The notes under the pieces are model-generated. The model had not been told where the DNA came from. It did no database searches and saw only the letters and a program-made list of their open reading frames with translations. Both the position numbers and the translations under genes were made by a program. From positions 1-43,982 of the forward strand of contig JAADGS010000026.1 of NCBI GenBank assembly GCA_013152275.1: a DNA stretch of 43,982 bases, given 5' to 3'. Positions 18,402 to 25,435 of this stretch are shown here, piece by piece; the stretch's first letter is position 1, and each line of letters starts with the position of its first letter. The stretch is from Actinomycetota bacterium. Its GTDB lineage: Bacteria; Actinomycetota; Acidimicrobiia; Spongiisociales; UBA4744.

Positions 18402-19553
18402 GTGGCCGCTGATCGCTTCGACGCTCGCCATTGGAAGCAGCGACTGCCGGTGCCTTCGGTCCGCGCAATCGTGTCGACGGGTGGGTTCGTGTTACTCGCC
18501 CTGGTGCTTTTCGCTACGACGGCGTGGGCGCTCGATGGCCCGACGCCACCACAGCCGAGTGATCCTGTCGGTACACACGTGGCACCACACGGTGGCTACT
18601 CGGCAAGCAGCAACATGTGTCTCCAATGTCACGACGTGCACGATGCGAGCGGGGATTATGCGTTGCTGTGGAAGAACAGCGTTACCTTCATGTGCGCGAC
18701 GTGTCACGGTCTGCATGGGCTCCGCGGAACGCTCGGGCTCCCGAGCGACTGCACCGAGTGCCATGACATGCACAGCGGGGGAAGCTTCTTTCCAACGCCT
18801 CGAGACCCGATCGGACCGGGAACCCTCGGCACGGTTTCGAGTCGGAGCGCCTACAACACATCCACACCGGCATCGACACACGGCATCGGGGCCTTGGCAC
18901 CTCCCGGTGAGACCGGCATCGTGATGACCCGGTCCGACTGGCAGTACTCGTGGGGTGCGAGTGGCCCGCCGCCGGCGGACGCGACGAACCCGTCGGGCTC
19001 CGGGACGGCATCCGACATCGGTGGCGGGCTCTACTGTGGAAGCTGTCACACTCCGCACGGGGACTTCGGACAGGTCGTGAACAAGTGGACGGCAGCCGAC
19101 GAGGGAAGGTCGATATGGTGGACCAACCCGACGACAGGCGACCAGGAACAGAAACTCTTGCACTATGACACCGGAACCGGCGCGTGGCAGGTGTGCGATA
19201 CCGGCGTCACGAATTGTCAGTTCGCCCAAGTGCGAGATGCCGAGGACCAATTGGTGTACCTGTACGCGTACAAGCTGCTGTCGGCATATCCCAATCATGC
19301 GTACTCGACGCTTCAGAGCTACGGTACCGAACAGAATGACGACGACGGGGCTCGGTGGTGCGGCACCTGTCACAGCTCCCGAGTCGACGGCGCCGGCTAC
19401 CACAATCATCCGACAGGGTGCAGTGCGTGTCACGGCAATCCGACAGGTGGAGCATCAACGGACTTCCCGCACACATCGTCCACGGAGTCGCTCCTCATCG
19501 CCTACCCGGACGCGCTCTGTGTCACCTGTCACACGTCGGGCAGCCTGCCATAG
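18402..19553 (+). CDS. Heptaheme secreted c-type cytochrome (doubled CXXCH type)
   Basis: A 383-residue exported cytochrome. A long signal peptide (hydrophobic 25-43, probable cleavage after AWA at 43) is followed by seven CxxCH motifs: CLQCH (73-77), CATCH, CTECH, CGSCH, CGTCH, CSACH and CVTCH. CLQCHDVHD...CATCHGLHG is the doubled-CXXCH arrangement. The middle (about 140-270) is a haem-poor, Gly/Ser/Trp-rich domain between haems 3 and 5. There is no lipobox and no C-terminal helix, so the mature protein should be free outside the membrane. GTG start with GGAG 7 bases upstream. It heads the plus-strand cluster with another cytochrome, a chaperone and an NHL protein; a role as extracellular or filament cytochrome is a hypothesis. 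Confidence 0.92.
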   Translation: MAADRFDARHWKQRLPVPSVRAIVSTGGFVLLALVLFATTAWALDGPTPPQPSDPVGTHVAPHGGYSASSNMCLQCHDVHDASGDYALLWKNSVTFMCATCHGLHGLRGTLGLPSDCTECHDMHSGGSFFPTPRDPIGPGTLGTVSSRSAYNTSTPASTHGIGALAPPGETGIVMTRSDWQYSWGASGPPPADATNPSGSGTASDIGGGLYCGSCHTPHGDFGQVVNKWTAADEGRSIWWTNPTTGDQEQKLLHYDTGTGAWQVCDTGVTNCQFAQVRDAEDQLVYLYAYKLLSAYPNHAYSTLQSYGTEQNDDDGARWCGTCHSSRVDGAGYHNHPTGCSACHGNPTGGASTDFPHTSSTESLLIAYPDALCVTCHTSGSLP

Positions 19554-19969
19554 AGGTGTGTGGTGCAACGAGGCACGCGCCCCGCAGTTTGGACCTTCGG
19601 CGAGACGACGCCGGTTGAACGGTAATCGTCGTCAGGGTCCGTCGGTTTTGCTCAGCTACCATGTAACTCTCCGGCCGAACGGCCAATCGGTTCGGGTCCT
19701 TTGGCCCCATGGAGGGGGGCTGAGCGCAGATACTGTGGACTGTGACCCGACGGGGACGAGAAGAACTCCTGATCGAGACAGGGAGGCGGCGAAGTTGATG
19801 ACACGAGAAGTTGGGCATGCTCTCCGCTGCGTCCTCGAGGTCGAGCGACCTCGATCGCTGTCTACCGCCTCGGCCGGCTCGATGCGGGATCCCGGTCGCT
19901 TCCACGCCAACACCGAATCGAGGGGGAGGCGAGATGTGATCGACCTTCCTCGCGGCGGCTGAGAGTTCC
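19554..19969. other. 416-bp gap between cytochrome genes
   Basis: No gene, clear terminator or riboswitch recognised. Short inverted matches such as GGCCGAACGGCC near 19676 are too short to call. It may carry a separate promoter for the 10-heme cytochrome. Confidence 0.4.
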
Positions 19970-20803
19970 ATGGCGCGCCATCGAAACCTGCGTAGGGTCC
20001 TGTCCGTTGTCGTGGTGATCGGAGCGATCGCCGTCGCCGGTGTACTCGTCGTCTCGCGGTCCCGCAACGGGAATACGCCGGTGACTTCGACGACCGTCGT
20101 CGACAACAGTGCATTTGCAGGGTGCACCGAGTGCCACGCCGACTTCGACGCCGCTCTCCTTTCCGGTCAGGTGCCGACGCTGACCTTCACGCACGCGCAG
20201 CACAAGGCGGCTGCCGGCGCCGTGGAGTGCGGTTCCTGTCATCCTTCCGAGACCCACGTTGGTCGCATAACCTTCAAACCGACGATGGAGGCCTGTTTCA
20301 GCTGTCATGGTGCGGCTGCCGCCTTCCCGATTCCCTGCGCCGCGTGTCATCCTCTCTCCGTGGTGCCCAAGCCTCCGAGCCACAAGGCGACAGATTGGGG
20401 CACGACGCACGGCATCGGTGTATTGGATGTCGAGTCCTCCTGTACCACCTGTCACTCACAAACGACGTTCTGTGATGCTTGTCACGGGGTCGAGATGCCT
20501 CACCCGAAAGGCTGGGACGGAAAACCACACGCCCTGGCGTTCTTCGACGCGGGTTCCGACGTGTGCGCGAAATGCCATTCGTTCGGAATCGACGTGAAGA
20601 GTCGCGACAAGTGTGACACGTGTCACCACTCTGGAGGACCCCAGGATCAACCCTGGGTGAAGGCACACCAAGATGTGGTTGGAGCCGAGGGCGGCGGTTC
20701 GTGCTTTGCTTGCCATGAGCCGGCGACGTGCGTGCAGTGTCATCTTCACGGTATCGAGAACCTCGATGCCGATCGGGCACGCCTTCTCGAGACTGGCGGG
20801 TGA
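19970..20803 (+). CDS. Decaheme c-type cytochrome with N-terminal membrane anchor
   Basis: A 277-residue cytochrome: an N-terminal hydrophobic helix (about 10-29) without a clear cleavage site or lipobox, a short Thr/Val linker, then ten CxxCH motifs (CTECH at 52-56, CGSCH, CFSCH, CAACH, CTTCH, CDACH, CAKCH, CDTCH, CFACH, CVQCH). That is one haem per roughly 22 residues, a very dense packing. CDACHGVEMPHP and the paired CTTCH/CDACH and CFACH/CVQCH are typical of cytochrome c3/c7-like families. Expected as a membrane-tethered electron relay in the cell envelope. The ribosome site is weak (GAGAG before ATG). Downstream is a region that looks like a decayed cytochrome. Confidence 0.93.
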   Translation: MARHRNLRRVLSVVVVIGAIAVAGVLVVSRSRNGNTPVTSTTVVDNSAFAGCTECHADFDAALLSGQVPTLTFTHAQHKAAAGAVECGSCHPSETHVGRITFKPTMEACFSCHGAAAAFPIPCAACHPLSVVPKPPSHKATDWGTTHGIGVLDVESSCTTCHSQTTFCDACHGVEMPHPKGWDGKPHALAFFDAGSDVCAKCHSFGIDVKSRDKCDTCHHSGGPQDQPWVKAHQDVVGAEGGGSCFACHEPATCVQCHLHGIENLDADRARLLETGG

Positions 20804-20903
20804 CATGGTCCGGAAGCACCGCGTCGGATGGTTGCATTCCTGAGGCAGCAGGCGATCATTCTTACGAGTTTGCGGCCGCGCTCCAGACCGTCAAGCATCA
20901 GGC

Positions 20904-21284
20904 GTGTCTTCCATCACGCGATCGACCCCGAGACCGACCTCCCACAGGCCTCGGCTCCTGGAGATGTCTCCTGTCTCGGATGCTGCCCCGGGCCCGGAGC
21001 CGTTGGCGCACGATCTCGTCGGTCCTTCTCGTCACAGAGTTCGTTCAACGGGTCACTCGTTTTCCCGCGGCCGACAGAACTCTTGGAACGCGTCCATGTC
21101 GAGGTGCCATGCCCTCAGGCGTCCGCCGGGACCGGCCTGCCATCCATGGGCGGGAGGCATCGGGCCGAGAGGATTTGGTGTATGCATGAGCTGTCATACT
21201 GACGCCTGCCACGCGAGGCGCCACTCCAACCACGCATCCAACCCATCCGAGAAGAAACCGCTGCGTACCGGAGGTCAACGATGA
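20904..21284 (+). pseudogene. Decayed or very small c-type cytochrome ORF
   Basis: The frame ending at 21284 contains GVCMSCHTDACHARRHSNH, a CxxCH haem site in a His-rich context, and its TGA overlaps the ATG of the next gene (ATGA), the arrangement of a genuine upstream gene. Upstream, coding-like sequence jumps frame: near 20905-20995 another frame reads DPETDLPQASAPGDVSCLGC, then C in place of the haem His (CLGCC). No good ribosome site is seen at GTG 20904 or at the later ATG that gives MSRCHALRRPPGPACHPW. I read it as a cytochrome gene broken by indels and substitutions; a short monoheme peptide encoded only by the 3' part is the alternative. The rest of the 20804-21280 gap holds nothing else recognised. 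Confidence 0.4.
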
Positions 21285-21940
21285 CAAAGCGTCTAGTGGC
21301 GGTCGCTGCTTTGCTTCTCATTGTGGTGGCGGGTCTGGCGGCTGCCATCTGGTATCGAACCGGGGTGCGTGACCCCGTCATCGTCAAGGTCGACGGCGTA
21401 CCCATCCACGAGTCCCAGGCCGAGGCCAGGATCGCCGGGATTGCGGCGGTGCACAAGGACATCGCCTCGACTCTCGGACCCGATTGGCGCTCGTTGGTAC
21501 TCCAGTCACTCGTCGACGACGTTCTCATGCAGCAGGAAGCACGTCGAGCCGGCATCGAGGTGATCGATCAGGACGTCGACGCGTCACTCGACTCCCTGCG
21601 CAGCAAGTTTCCTTCCGAAGCCGACTGGAGGCGTTTCCTGGAGGAACAAGGCATCGATCAAACCGAACTCGAGAGGAGGATCCGACTCCAGCTCGTCGGT
21701 TCCAGGGTCTATGAGGAAGTGACGGCTGCGGTTGCTCCCACCGAGGACGAATTGCGCGCCTACTACCGGGCTCACGAGTCCGATTTCACCGTGGATGGCA
21801 AGGTGCAGCCCTTTCTCGAGGTCCGCAACTCGATCGAGGACAAGGTGACGAAGCAGATGCGGGACGAGGCGTTCGGTACCTGGCTGCAGCAGCGCCGGAG
21901 CGAGGCGGACATCGTGGTTGTGAGCGATGAGTGGCGGTAG
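21281..21940 (+). CDS. SurA/PrsA-like periplasmic chaperone lacking a PPIase domain
   Basis: A 219-residue envelope protein: N-terminal signal anchor (5-22, LVAVAALLLIVVAGLAAAIW), then a SurA_N-type helical chaperone domain (VIVKVDGVPIHESQAEARIA, VLQSLVDDVLMQQEARRAGI, LEEQGIDQTELERRIRLQL). The closing helix (RNSIEDKVTKQMRDEAFGTW) in PrsA/SurA proteins follows the parvulin domain; here only about 15 residues separate the parts, so the rotamase domain is missing. Such proteins bind unfolded exported clients. Placed among exported cytochromes, it is a likely folding or haem-loading helper for them (inference). ATG 21281 has GGAGG upstream and overlaps the preceding stop. Confidence 0.83.
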   Translation: MTKRLVAVAALLLIVVAGLAAAIWYRTGVRDPVIVKVDGVPIHESQAEARIAGIAAVHKDIASTLGPDWRSLVLQSLVDDVLMQQEARRAGIEVIDQDVDASLDSLRSKFPSEADWRRFLEEQGIDQTELERRIRLQLVGSRVYEEVTAAVAPTEDELRAYYRAHESDFTVDGKVQPFLEVRNSIEDKVTKQMRDEAFGTWLQQRRSEADIVVVSDEWR

Positions 21941-22133
21941 CAGTCCGAGCATCGGGCTTTCCAGAGGCCTCCTCGTCGGCACCCTCGAAAGGTTACGACT
22001 CGTCCGGAGCGGCGCGGAAGGAGTCGAACCGTTCTACGGAGTGGCAGCAGCCGGTGCGCTTGTTCTCTTCGAAGCCAACTTCGGTTTCGCTCGGACGCCG
22101 CACGGGCTCGGACCTTCGGTCGCGGCCCCGTGA
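21927..22133 (+). CDS. Possible small protein between chaperone and NHL genes
   Basis: A 68-codon reading that overlaps the chaperone stop by 14 bases and ends in a TGA overlapping a GTG at 22130, just before the NHL gene. It has a short hydrophobic stretch (FYGVAAAGALVLFEANFGFA), no recognised motif and no convincing ribosome site. The overlaps on both sides favour a gene; the absence of a Shine-Dalgarno and homology argues against it. I do not recognise it. Confidence 0.28.
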   Translation: MSGGSSPSIGLSRGLLVGTLERLRLVRSGAEGVEPFYGVAAAGALVLFEANFGFARTPHGLGPSVAAP

Positions 22134-22144
22134 AGGACCACGGC

Positions 22145-23293
22145 ATGGAATCGCCACAAGAACCGTCGCTCGAGCGGGAAAGGCGGCCTTTGGGGCAGGC
22201 CACGATTCACCGCCTGCTCTATGTCCTCATCGGTCTTCTCGGCGTAGCGGCGGTCATCCTGCTCGTCATGCTCATCTGGCTGCTACGTCCCCAGCCCACC
22301 TCGATGCCGGTTGCCGTGGCGGGATGTCCCATGGAGATCACCCGATCGATCTACGGATACGGAACGAAACCGGCCGAGTTGCTGGTTCAACCTCTCGCGG
22401 TCACCTTCGACGGGACAGGCAATGTGTGGATCTCCGATACGGGGAACGCCCGAGTGGTCGAGTTTGGTCCCAACGGGAAGCTGGTTCGCTCCGTGGGTGA
22501 TGACGGCGGTCAGGGACGTCTCCACAGTCCCTACGGCCTGGCGTTCGGCAGCGACTTCGAGCGTCTCTACGTGGCGGATTGGACGCGACGAGAAGTGGTG
22601 GTCTTCTCGGCCGACGGACACTACGTGAAGAGCCTGCCCGCAGGCGACCAGGACCTTGCCGTGTTCGGTCCCGACGGGTTCTCTCCCTACGATGTCGCCG
22701 TTCGCGGAGCCCAGATCGTGGTTGCCTCCAACGATGGCCTGTATTTCTTCGACAGGTCCGGGCACGTCGTCGATCGGTGGGGAGGTGACACGCGAGGATC
22801 GGACGTGGGTAGTTTCGCCTTCCCCGATGCCCTCGCCATCGACCCGACAACCGGCAACGTGTACGTTGCCGACACCCTCAACCGGCGCGTGGTTGCCCTC
22901 GACGGGGACGGCAACGTGCTCTGGGTCTCGGGAAAGCGTGACGAGGAGGGCAAGATCGTCGGCTTCTGGCAGCTTCCAAGATCGGTTGTGGTCGGCCCGG
23001 ATGGTCTCGTCTACGTCACCGACACGTTTCGAGCCCAGGATCACTGCGCCGGCACAGGACACATCGTGGTGTTGAAGCCGACGGGAGAGCTGGTCTCCGA
23101 GTTCGGTGCCGCCGGGCAATCGGAGGACACGCTCAGTTTCCCGGAGAAGATGGCGATCGGCCCGGAAGGTACGTTCGCCCTCGCCGACCGCGAGAACAAC
23201 CGGGTGGTGCTCTTCACCGTCGGTCCGCTGCCACCGGCCGATCCTGGTGAAGCGAGCCTCTACGAGAAGTCGTTCGTGCGTTTCGGACCGTGA
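22145..23293 (+). CDS. Membrane-anchored NHL-repeat beta-propeller protein
   Basis: A 382-residue protein with a short cytoplasmic N-terminus, one transmembrane helix (about 23-47, LLYVLIGLLGVAAVILLVMLIW) and an extracytoplasmic six-bladed NHL propeller: LLVQPLAVTFDGTGNVWISD, LHSPYGLAFGSDFERLYVAD, FSPYDVAV, FAFPDALAIDPTTGNVYVAD, LPRSVVVGPDGLVYVTD and FPEKMAIGPEGTFALAD. NHL propellers are binding platforms without a fixed chemistry. NHL proteins and peptidyl-prolyl-isomerase-like chaperones are often encoded beside multiheme cytochromes of metal reducers, which fits an assembly or scaffold role. I chose ATG 22145 because AAGGA lies 7 bases upstream; GTG 22130 is the alternative. Confidence 0.87.
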   Translation: MESPQEPSLERERRPLGQATIHRLLYVLIGLLGVAAVILLVMLIWLLRPQPTSMPVAVAGCPMEITRSIYGYGTKPAELLVQPLAVTFDGTGNVWISDTGNARVVEFGPNGKLVRSVGDDGGQGRLHSPYGLAFGSDFERLYVADWTRREVVVFSADGHYVKSLPAGDQDLAVFGPDGFSPYDVAVRGAQIVVASNDGLYFFDRSGHVVDRWGGDTRGSDVGSFAFPDALAIDPTTGNVYVADTLNRRVVALDGDGNVLWVSGKRDEEGKIVGFWQLPRSVVVGPDGLVYVTDTFRAQDHCAGTGHIVVLKPTGELVSEFGAAGQSEDTLSFPEKMAIGPEGTFALADRENNRVVLFTVGPLPPADPGEASLYEKSFVRFGP

Positions 23294-23378
23294 CCGACCA
23301 CCGGCGACGGTGACGAGGTCTCCGAACGTCGTACCTAAACTTGTCGGGCCGGGAGTACTTTCGAGGAGGCCGATCGCA

Positions 23379-24080
23379 ATGGCGCGATCCGTGGAACGCA
23401 TGATCGGGTACGGGAAGCTCCTGGCCGATCTCGCCGAGAGCGGATGTCCGGTCTGTCGAGGGTCGGTTGGTGCCGCGGCGAGGTACTTGGAGAGCCTGCT
23501 CTGGGAGAACGTGAACGATGCCGAGGTCCGGGAAGGACTCCGGCGCGACCACGGATTCTGTCGGGAACACTCTTTGGCCCTCCTGCAGGTGGCGGCGGCG
23601 CGAAGTGAGGCGCTCGGTGTGGCCATCCTCTACGAAGATTTGCTGGATCACATCGAGCAGGAGATCGTCACCGTGGGAGCGAGTTCGCGACGCAGACCTT
23701 CCCGCTCTTGGTTGAATATGAGATCCGGCCCGTCATGTCGGGCTTGTACGGTCGCCGACGATGTGGCCGTCAACTACCTCCGCATCATCGCGACTTCCGA
23801 ACCGGATACCGATCTGGATCGACATCTCGGAGGAGCTGCCCTGTGCTTTCCTCATTTTTCGAGAGGGCTGGAGATTCGGGGGCTCGATCATGAGCGGCTC
23901 GAGGCGGTGTATCTACGAGGGTCGGTTTCGATTCGAGCCGAGCTCCGGCGTCTCATCGATCACGCAGACTATCGACGGGCCGACGAACCCCTGGGGAACG
24001 AGAAGGACGCCTGGGCACGCGCCGTCCACCTCGTCGTCGGTTCTCCCGTGTACGGTGCCGTCGCGGAGTCGGGATCATGA
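23379..24080 (+). CDS. Protein with two CxxC...CxxH modules (DUF6062-like)
   Basis: A 233-residue protein without signal peptide or membrane helix. It has two modules: C23PVC26 with FC61REH64 and C120RAC123 with LC156FPH159, each a helical segment of 32-34 residues between CxxC and CxxH. The block SLLWENVNDAEVREGLRRDH followed by GFCREH resembles DUF6062-type proteins of unknown function; I assign this from memory of the pattern, with limited certainty. Four-ligand Cys3His sites suggest zinc or iron binding. These are not CxxCH haem sites. GAGGAGG precedes ATG 23379. Its stop overlaps the start of the next gene, which carries four more such modules, so the pair is made together. Confidence 0.75.
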   Translation: MARSVERMIGYGKLLADLAESGCPVCRGSVGAAARYLESLLWENVNDAEVREGLRRDHGFCREHSLALLQVAAARSEALGVAILYEDLLDHIEQEIVTVGASSRRRPSRSWLNMRSGPSCRACTVADDVAVNYLRIIATSEPDTDLDRHLGGAALCFPHFSRGLEIRGLDHERLEAVYLRGSVSIRAELRRLIDHADYRRADEPLGNEKDAWARAVHLVVGSPVYGAVAESGS

Positions 24081-25435
24081 GCAACTCGGAGTCGGGGCAA
24101 GGAGCAGCCCGGCCGACCGACGAATGTCCCGTCTGCAGCGAAGTGTCCCTGGCCCGCCAGAGACATTGGTTCTGGGTGTTCGCCGAGAAACTCGGGGATG
24201 GGGCGTTCCTGACCCGACTGGGAACGGGAGGCGGCTACTGCGTCAGGCACGCTCGTGAGCTGCTTCTTCACGAGCAGGGGGAACGCACGGCCCGGGGGTT
24301 CCAGTTCGTGTTGCGAGGATGGCGTGCCGGCCTCGGAGCTTCGATGCGTCTCGACTGCCCTGCATGCCGCATCGAGGCCGAGACGGAGGCGTATGTCCTG
24401 CGCCTGCTGAGTCGCGGATTGTGGAGCGGAGATCAGCAGACACGTCTGGACCCGGACGCCCTGTCATGTCTGCCACATGCCCGGATGCTCCTCGAGCAGG
24501 CGCAGGAAGGGATTCTGCCCGAGGCTCTGAAGCGGTTGGGTGCAACGGTCGATCGAGTGCGAGCAGGTGACGGTGGATCGCAGGCCGAGATCCACACCGC
24601 GATCGGTCACGGGTACGACGAGACGTTTCGGAGGCCTGAACGTTGCGATACCGATGCCACGGCCGTGCTCTCGTTCGACGCTGCCGATCGTGCACTTGCC
24701 CAGGGATGGTGCCCTCTCTGTCTGGCAGGCCGTGAGGCGTCGGAGAACGTCATCGGATGGCTCGGGCATCCGGATCGAACCGACCGGGACCAGGATGATT
24801 TTGCCCGGCTGTGCCCCGCCCACCTGTGGGATGCCGCGGCGAACGATCCGGAAGCTTCGGCCCGGACGATGCAGCGGATCCGTCGCACCTGGATCAGGAG
24901 CCTCGGGGGACTCGAGGCGCTTGTCGAAGGGGCCGCGCAATCCGATCGGAAGGGACGATCGGGCAACGGGTCGCGCAGCAGGTTTCGCGGATGGTTGGAA
25001 CGCGCGTTCCCGAAACGCAGTCGCGAAGTCCAGTTCCGCAGGATCCTCGTGGAGGAGGAGTGCGTGGCGTGCGTCGCAGCCGTGACCGCGGTCGACCGTG
25101 GCATCGCACTCCTCGATGCCTACCTTCTCGACACGGATCGAAGCGATTGGTACCTACGCTCGAGCGGCGTGTGCCTGCAGCATGCCTACGCCGCGATCCC
25201 ACACCTCGGTGAGCAGCCTGCGCTCATTGTGACCGACCGGGCAAAGACCCTCATCGCGCGCACGATGTGGGGCCTCGACGAGGCGATCCGCAAGGTGAGC
25301 TGGTCGGTGCGGTATGAGCCATCCGGGGAAGAGACCGAGACGTGGCGTGAAGCGGTCGTGCTCACCGTCGGACGAGGCGTGTTGTGCTCAGACTGGCTCG
25401 CGCCCGTTCTGCAGCGTCCCGAGCGAGCCGTATAG
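24077..25435 (+). CDS. Protein with four CxxC...CxxH modules
   Basis: A 452-residue, apparently cytosolic protein with the same module four times: C17PVC20/YC55VRH58, C94PAC97/SC131LPH134, C212PLC215/LC246PAH249 and C329VAC332/VC366LQH369. The intra-module gaps of 30-34 residues are helical and rich in Trp, Leu and Arg. A basic, low-complexity linker (about 288-318) separates modules 3 and 4. The fusion of four copies, coupled by ATGA to a two-module paralogue, looks like lineage-specific expansion of one metal-binding unit. Possible roles are metal or haem handling for the cytochromes encoded upstream, or a structural role; none is demonstrated. I do not recognise a named family for the full-length protein. 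Confidence 0.72.
   Translation: MSNSESGQGAARPTDECPVCSEVSLARQRHWFWVFAEKLGDGAFLTRLGTGGGYCVRHARELLLHEQGERTARGFQFVLRGWRAGLGASMRLDCPACRIEAETEAYVLRLLSRGLWSGDQQTRLDPDALSCLPHARMLLEQAQEGILPEALKRLGATVDRVRAGDGGSQAEIHTAIGHGYDETFRRPERCDTDATAVLSFDAADRALAQGWCPLCLAGREASENVIGWLGHPDRTDRDQDDFARLCPAHLWDAAANDPEASARTMQRIRRTWIRSLGGLEALVEGAAQSDRKGRSGNGSRSRFRGWLERAFPKRSREVQFRRILVEEECVACVAAVTAVDRGIALLDAYLLDTDRSDWYLRSSGVCLQHAYAAIPHLGEQPALIVTDRAKTLIARTMWGLDEAIRKVSWSVRYEPSGEETETWREAVVLTVGRGVLCSDWLAPVLQRPERAV

Follow-up and report, generated by a model that had tools for sequence, protein, structure and literature searches.

A pair of overlapping genes encoding DUF6062 proteins with two and four Cys3His modules

The genome segment examined here (the window; 43,982 nucleotides of contig JAADGS010000026.1 from an Actinomycetota bacterium) encodes two overlapping genes, A and B, whose products are placed by profile search in the Pfam family DUF6062 and together hold six copies of a Cys3His quartet of the form CxxC-X30-34-CxxH, two in A and four in B. 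The ligands of these quartets are invariant among homologues, B carries a tandemly duplicated A-type domain, and the pair is independent of the multihaem cytochrome genes that lie beside it. We propose that A and B are cytosolic, all-helical proteins in which each quartet would hold one structural Zn(II), giving two sites in A and four in B. The co-translated products, perhaps as a complex, would then most likely be a helical scaffold or adaptor, stapled by zinc, that binds a partner, and neither an enzyme nor a factor in cytochrome biogenesis. We infer the zinc, the A-B complex and the scaffold role, and the proposal has about an even chance of being correct. With a module, a duplication, invariant ligands and coupled pairs in hand, DUF6062 becomes a metalloprotein family that can be tested as such.

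Gene organization and family assignment

Gene A (23379..24080; 233 amino acids, ATG start) is preceded by a Shine-Dalgarno sequence, AGGAGG, at 23364..23369, and gene B (24077..25435; 452 amino acids) by a Shine-Dalgarno-like GGAG at 24065..24068, within gene A. These features, like all others described below for the two genes, are on the plus strand. The TGA of gene A and the ATG of gene B share the tetranucleotide ATGA (24077..24080), an overlap that would couple translation of the two genes and suggests that A and B probably work together. Values of dN/dS between two species of the window's genus (0.27 for gene A and 0.11 for gene B) indicate purifying selection on both genes, and the ortholog of gene A in genome G001 is 76% identical. 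No signal peptide-like or transmembrane-like stretch was found in either protein using Kyte-Doolittle averages over 19-residue windows (highest mean, ~1.6), and thus both should be cytosolic. PADLOC returned no defence match for A or B.

Protein A matches the DUF6062 model (PF19538) with 51.4 bits (E=1.2e-13) over residues 20-221, above the curated cut-off of 27 bits. Protein B narrowly exceeds the same cut-off with 29.2 bits (E=7.5e-7), and its best stretch is confined to residues 11-64, which correspond to the first module. Both proteins of this pair, which a preliminary description of this DNA had pointed out, therefore belong to DUF6062, and hence neither is an orphan. No fitting NCBIfam family was found for A or B, and our literature search retrieved no paper naming DUF6062 or PF19538. 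A partial match to the V4R domain (PF02830; 17.7 bits, E=0.0038) was rejected because it falls below the cut-off of 31 bits.

The PF19538 model comprises 243 positions and two modules, and each DUF6062 domain has two CxxC...CxxH pairs. Protein A, a full-length match with two such pairs, fits this one-domain architecture. Protein B, a partial match, has the same pairs and the same C-terminal tail, but differs in carrying two plus two modules through a duplicated domain. The tail, YR..EP.G.E...W.RA...G, is present in A as a conserved helical segment ((Y)R..(D)EP.G.E...W.RA....G; 23889..24053, from alignment) and at the end of B (YEPSGEE...WREA....G; 25211..25384, from alignment and profile comparison).

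Comparison of the four-module with the two-module profile (E=1.2e-54) superimposes the modules of A on the first two of B and the tail of A on the tail of B, and the N-terminal half of the four-module family also matches its C-terminal half (E=6e-17). These profile alignments indicate that gene B arose by tandem duplication of an A-type, two-site domain. When HMMs of single modules are used, the one for the second module gives the highest scores for modules 2 and 4 and the one for the first module does so for module 1; module 3 is ambiguous. The domain family is already known, and its Pfam model does not cover the four-module variant; at an E-value of 0.001, that model missed five genomes with B-like proteins.

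Cys3His modules and their candidate metal

Motif searches and alignment locate two modules in protein A, A1 (C23-x2-C26-x34-C61-x2-H64; 23445..23570) and A2 (C120-x2-C123-x32-C156-x2-H159; 23736..23855). Four are located in protein B, namely B1 (C17-x2-C20-x34-C55-x2-H58; 24125..24250), B2 (C94-x2-C97-x33-C131-x2-H134; 24356..24478), B3 (C212-x2-C215-x30-C246-x2-H249; 24710..24823) and B4 (C329-x2-C332-x33-C366-x2-H369; 25061..25183). The CxxC-to-CxxH spacers are 34 and 32 residues in A, and 34, 33, 30 and 33 residues in B. When A and B were each shuffled 20,000 times, no shuffled protein held more than one module (means of 0.00025 and 0.002), versus the two and four observed. The sequence and the shuffles thus bear out the preliminary description of six CxxC-(30-34)-CxxH copies split two and four across ATGA-overlapping genes. 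None of the six motifs is CxxCH, in agreement with its view that no haem site is formed by the module. The Cys3His unit that it placed in a cytosolic protein is a real repeat, found in proteins that have no signal- or membrane-like stretch.

All six cysteines of A and 12 of the 14 cysteines of B lie inside modules, and neither of the extra residues in B (Cys190 and Cys437) is conserved. Conservation of the Cys and His ligands, which the preliminary description had put forward for checking, extends across homologues of both kinds. An alignment of 59 two-module proteins has no invariant column other than those of Met1 and the eight ligands. The ligands are 99-100% conserved in 83 two-module proteins, a set selected partly by the presence of at least one module. 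Likewise, across 25 three- or four-module proteins, none of the 16 ligand positions varies where a residue is aligned.

In three relatives of one another (L124, L125 and L129), module 3 lacks its CxxH and module 4 its CxxC, and three complete quartets are retained. Such loss of ligands by fours is expected if a quartet forms one tetrahedral site for a single metal ion. Besides the metal ligands, the alignments contain no invariant residue that might act in catalysis, which argues against an enzyme.

The AlphaFold2 model of A is entirely helical (pLDDT 89.7, pTM 0.84), and the CxxC and CxxH of each module are positioned at or beside helix starts. The model of B is less sure (pLDDT 77). Searches of solved structures by sequence gave no match for A or B alone, and the profile yielded weak matches only, the best being to two ribosomal proteins, bS18 (E=0.014) and eL42 (E=0.017). 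Fold searches with the models of A and B returned no PDB match at E<=0.001 and nothing among viral structures. The best VIA-align result for A (Z 4.8 over 68 residues) is to a designed protein, with 14-3-3 rows tied, and it therefore carries no information on the fold.

These models bear on the possibility that A and B are a zinc buffer or deliver metal to other proteins, as the multiplication of sites within one protein and the presence of transporters among DUF6062 neighbours (MFS, Na/H antiporter and CrcB-like) might suggest. However, the predicted position of the ligands, where helices begin in a bundle modelled with confidence, would suit structural over exchangeable sites, and no known metal transporter family recurs among the neighbours. 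We therefore consider buffering or delivery very unlikely.

A precedent for the metal is offered by bS18. In the window's phylum, bS18 has the motif CxxC-X33-CxxH, and the DUF6062 profile aligns with mycobacterial bS18 without gaps over the motif (E=0.014; weak hmmsearch matches range over E=0.014-0.18). Ribosome structures from M. tuberculosis and M. pneumoniae (7MT3 and 7OOC; PMC11791143) have Zn2+ bound by CxxC..CxxH bS18. This zinc (C+) form of bS18 (RpsR) shares with the DUF6062 modules the ligand pattern, a spacing of ~33 residues and a helix after the CxxH. In contrast, bS18 has a single site, and in the model of A an additional helix precedes the CxxH of the DUF6062 modules. Comparison of DUF6062 with bS18 by hhalign gave probabilities of 5% and 1%, and thus no homology at the profile level. 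Because this comparison does not support common ancestry, we treat bS18 as a chemical precedent and not as a family assignment. By analogy with this precedent, zinc is the likeliest metal of the DUF6062 quartets.

The same ribosomal protein provides an argument for iron-sulfur clusters. A near-identical Cys motif in mitochondrial bS18m/mL66 binds [2Fe-2S]; the fourth ligand is a Cys that a second protein supplies, and the His is unused (PMC11791143). If the quartets of A and B were to bind [2Fe-2S] or [4Fe-4S], the proteins might carry electrons or assemble cluster enzymes, and hydrogenase-like and formate dehydrogenase genes do lie beside some homologues. Given that the mitochondrial proteins recruit a Cys from another chain and leave the His unused, that the bacterial CxxC..CxxH form of bS18 binds zinc, and that Fe-S genes are absent from most DUF6062 neighbourhoods, we regard an iron-sulfur role as distinctly improbable.

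Distribution and relation to the cytochrome genes

Upstream of the pair, positions 18402-23293 of the window hold a cytochrome cluster whose core encodes multihaem cytochromes together with an isomerase of SurA/PpiC type and an NHL beta-propeller anchored in the membrane. The PpiC and NHL genes separate the last cytochrome gene from the A/B pair further downstream. Viewed within the window alone, this arrangement would suggest a role in cytochrome maturation, and the preliminary description had tied the pair to the cytochromes through possible haem or apocytochrome handling. The multihaem c-type cytochromes of the window resemble A and B as Cys-rich neighbours, but A and B have neither a CxxCH motif nor an export signal and are not haem proteins of this type.

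The wider distribution of DUF6062 removes the cytochrome-maturation reading. A multihaem ORF (at least three CxxCH motifs, scored in the stretch fetched around each locus) accompanies DUF6062 at 5 of 98 loci, two of which are the window and its congener. Homologues are widespread far from such genes, an outcome that the preliminary description had named as refuting its tie to cytochromes, being present in 81 of 301 sampled Chloroflexota genomes (about a quarter) and 16 of 396 genomes of the window's phylum. Within the window's class, DUF6062 was found in 2 of 198 genomes, both from the window's genus. One Pseudothermotoga MAG also carries the family.

Comparable cytochrome clusters also exist without the pair. 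A paralogous cytochrome-PpiC-NHL cluster in the same genome (contig C81, L220) has no DUF6062 gene, nor does the cytochrome-PpiC-NHL cluster of an order-mate (G007, L219). The G007 contig ends ~0.9 kb past the 7-haem gene, and the NHL gene and what comes after it are inside the contig; a profile search of the G007 genome gave no DUF6062 match. These two clusters show that the pair is dispensable for clusters of this kind. Conversely, the G001 locus retains A, B, the 7-haem gene, PpiC and NHL, but lacks the 10-haem and cytochrome b genes and all but a small part of the 9-haem gene; a 10-haem homologue is located elsewhere in that genome.

Handling of haem or apocytochrome for the neighbouring multihaem cytochromes is thus largely refuted and seems to us scarcely credible, even though the pair adjoins the cytochrome-PpiC-NHL cluster in two species of the genus. 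A and B are independent of the cytochrome genes, and their place beside them looks incidental. The cytochrome clusters of the window, C81 and G007 resemble gene clusters of extracellular cytochrome filaments. A literature search on NHL/PpiC cytochrome clusters yielded nothing useful.

Pairing of DUF6062 genes recurs beyond the window. The window's phylum has B-like proteins in four genera or more, and many Chloroflexota have them too. One Chloroflexota genome (G773, L156) has the same 2+4 layout as the window, and a GTGA overlap can replace ATGA. Others in that phylum carry a 2+2 pair with overlapping ends (G582, L161) or clusters of 2+4+4+2 and 4+2+2 modules (G784 and G579, respectively). Homologues of B also occur in genomes with no detected two-module protein, and the A/B pair is therefore not obligatory. 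Some Chloroflexota loci (L073, L121 and L068) carry three or four DUF6062 genes in tandem, in some cases with four modules per gene.

Other neighbours of DUF6062 genes

The neighbourhoods of DUF6062 genes vary, and no single pathway is prominent among them. Within 5 kb of the 98 loci, the neighbours include MFS transporters (16), a zinc-ribbon/HEAT protein (12), Na/H antiporter-type proteins (10), universal stress or DUF190-like proteins (10), hydrogenase-4/Nuo-like proteins (9), a histidine phosphatase cluster (9), DUF58 (9), MoxR (4) and formate dehydrogenase alpha (4). These counts are approximate, since spurious frames are mixed into some clusters. Names were given by sequence, and not every one of the related loci is independent.

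Several of these neighbours would accord with a thiol redox switch or zinc sensor, in which Cys3His sites release zinc upon oxidation or zinc shortage and thereby alter partner binding, as in Hsp33 and zinc anti-sigma factors. Cys-rich sites of zinc type in the cytosol are in keeping with such a function, and genes nearby often encode universal stress proteins, antiporters or redox complexes, the last including formate dehydrogenase and group-4 hydrogenase-like enzymes. However, every site is invariant, a trait that structural sites share, and neither an output domain nor a common regulated gene was found. Switching or sensing is accordingly a tentative reading that we consider unlikely.

Returning to the structural-zinc scaffold, a broader and speculative extension would make DUF6062 a distinct class of modular helical metalloproteins in which the Cys3His quartet has been multiplied to 2-4 sites per chain and up to twelve per gene cluster. 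Co-translated scaffolds of this class might serve in the assembly or regulation of various redox and ion-transport complexes of the membrane. We doubt that this generalization is correct as it stands.

Genes for group-4 hydrogenase-like (Hyf/Nuo) membrane subunits repeatedly adjoin DUF6062 (L161, L121, L127, L130, L034-L037 and L048), and in genus g176 a four-module gene lies close behind a hydrogenase-like operon on the same strand. A small protein with a zinc ribbon and HEAT repeats is a recurrent same-strand neighbour in two phyla (L045, L048, L059, L118 and L120). Genes for dynamin-like GTPases are located next to DUF6062 at L033, L048, L055 and L056, and the dynamin-like neighbour at L033 matches the LeoA/LeoBC models of PADLOC.
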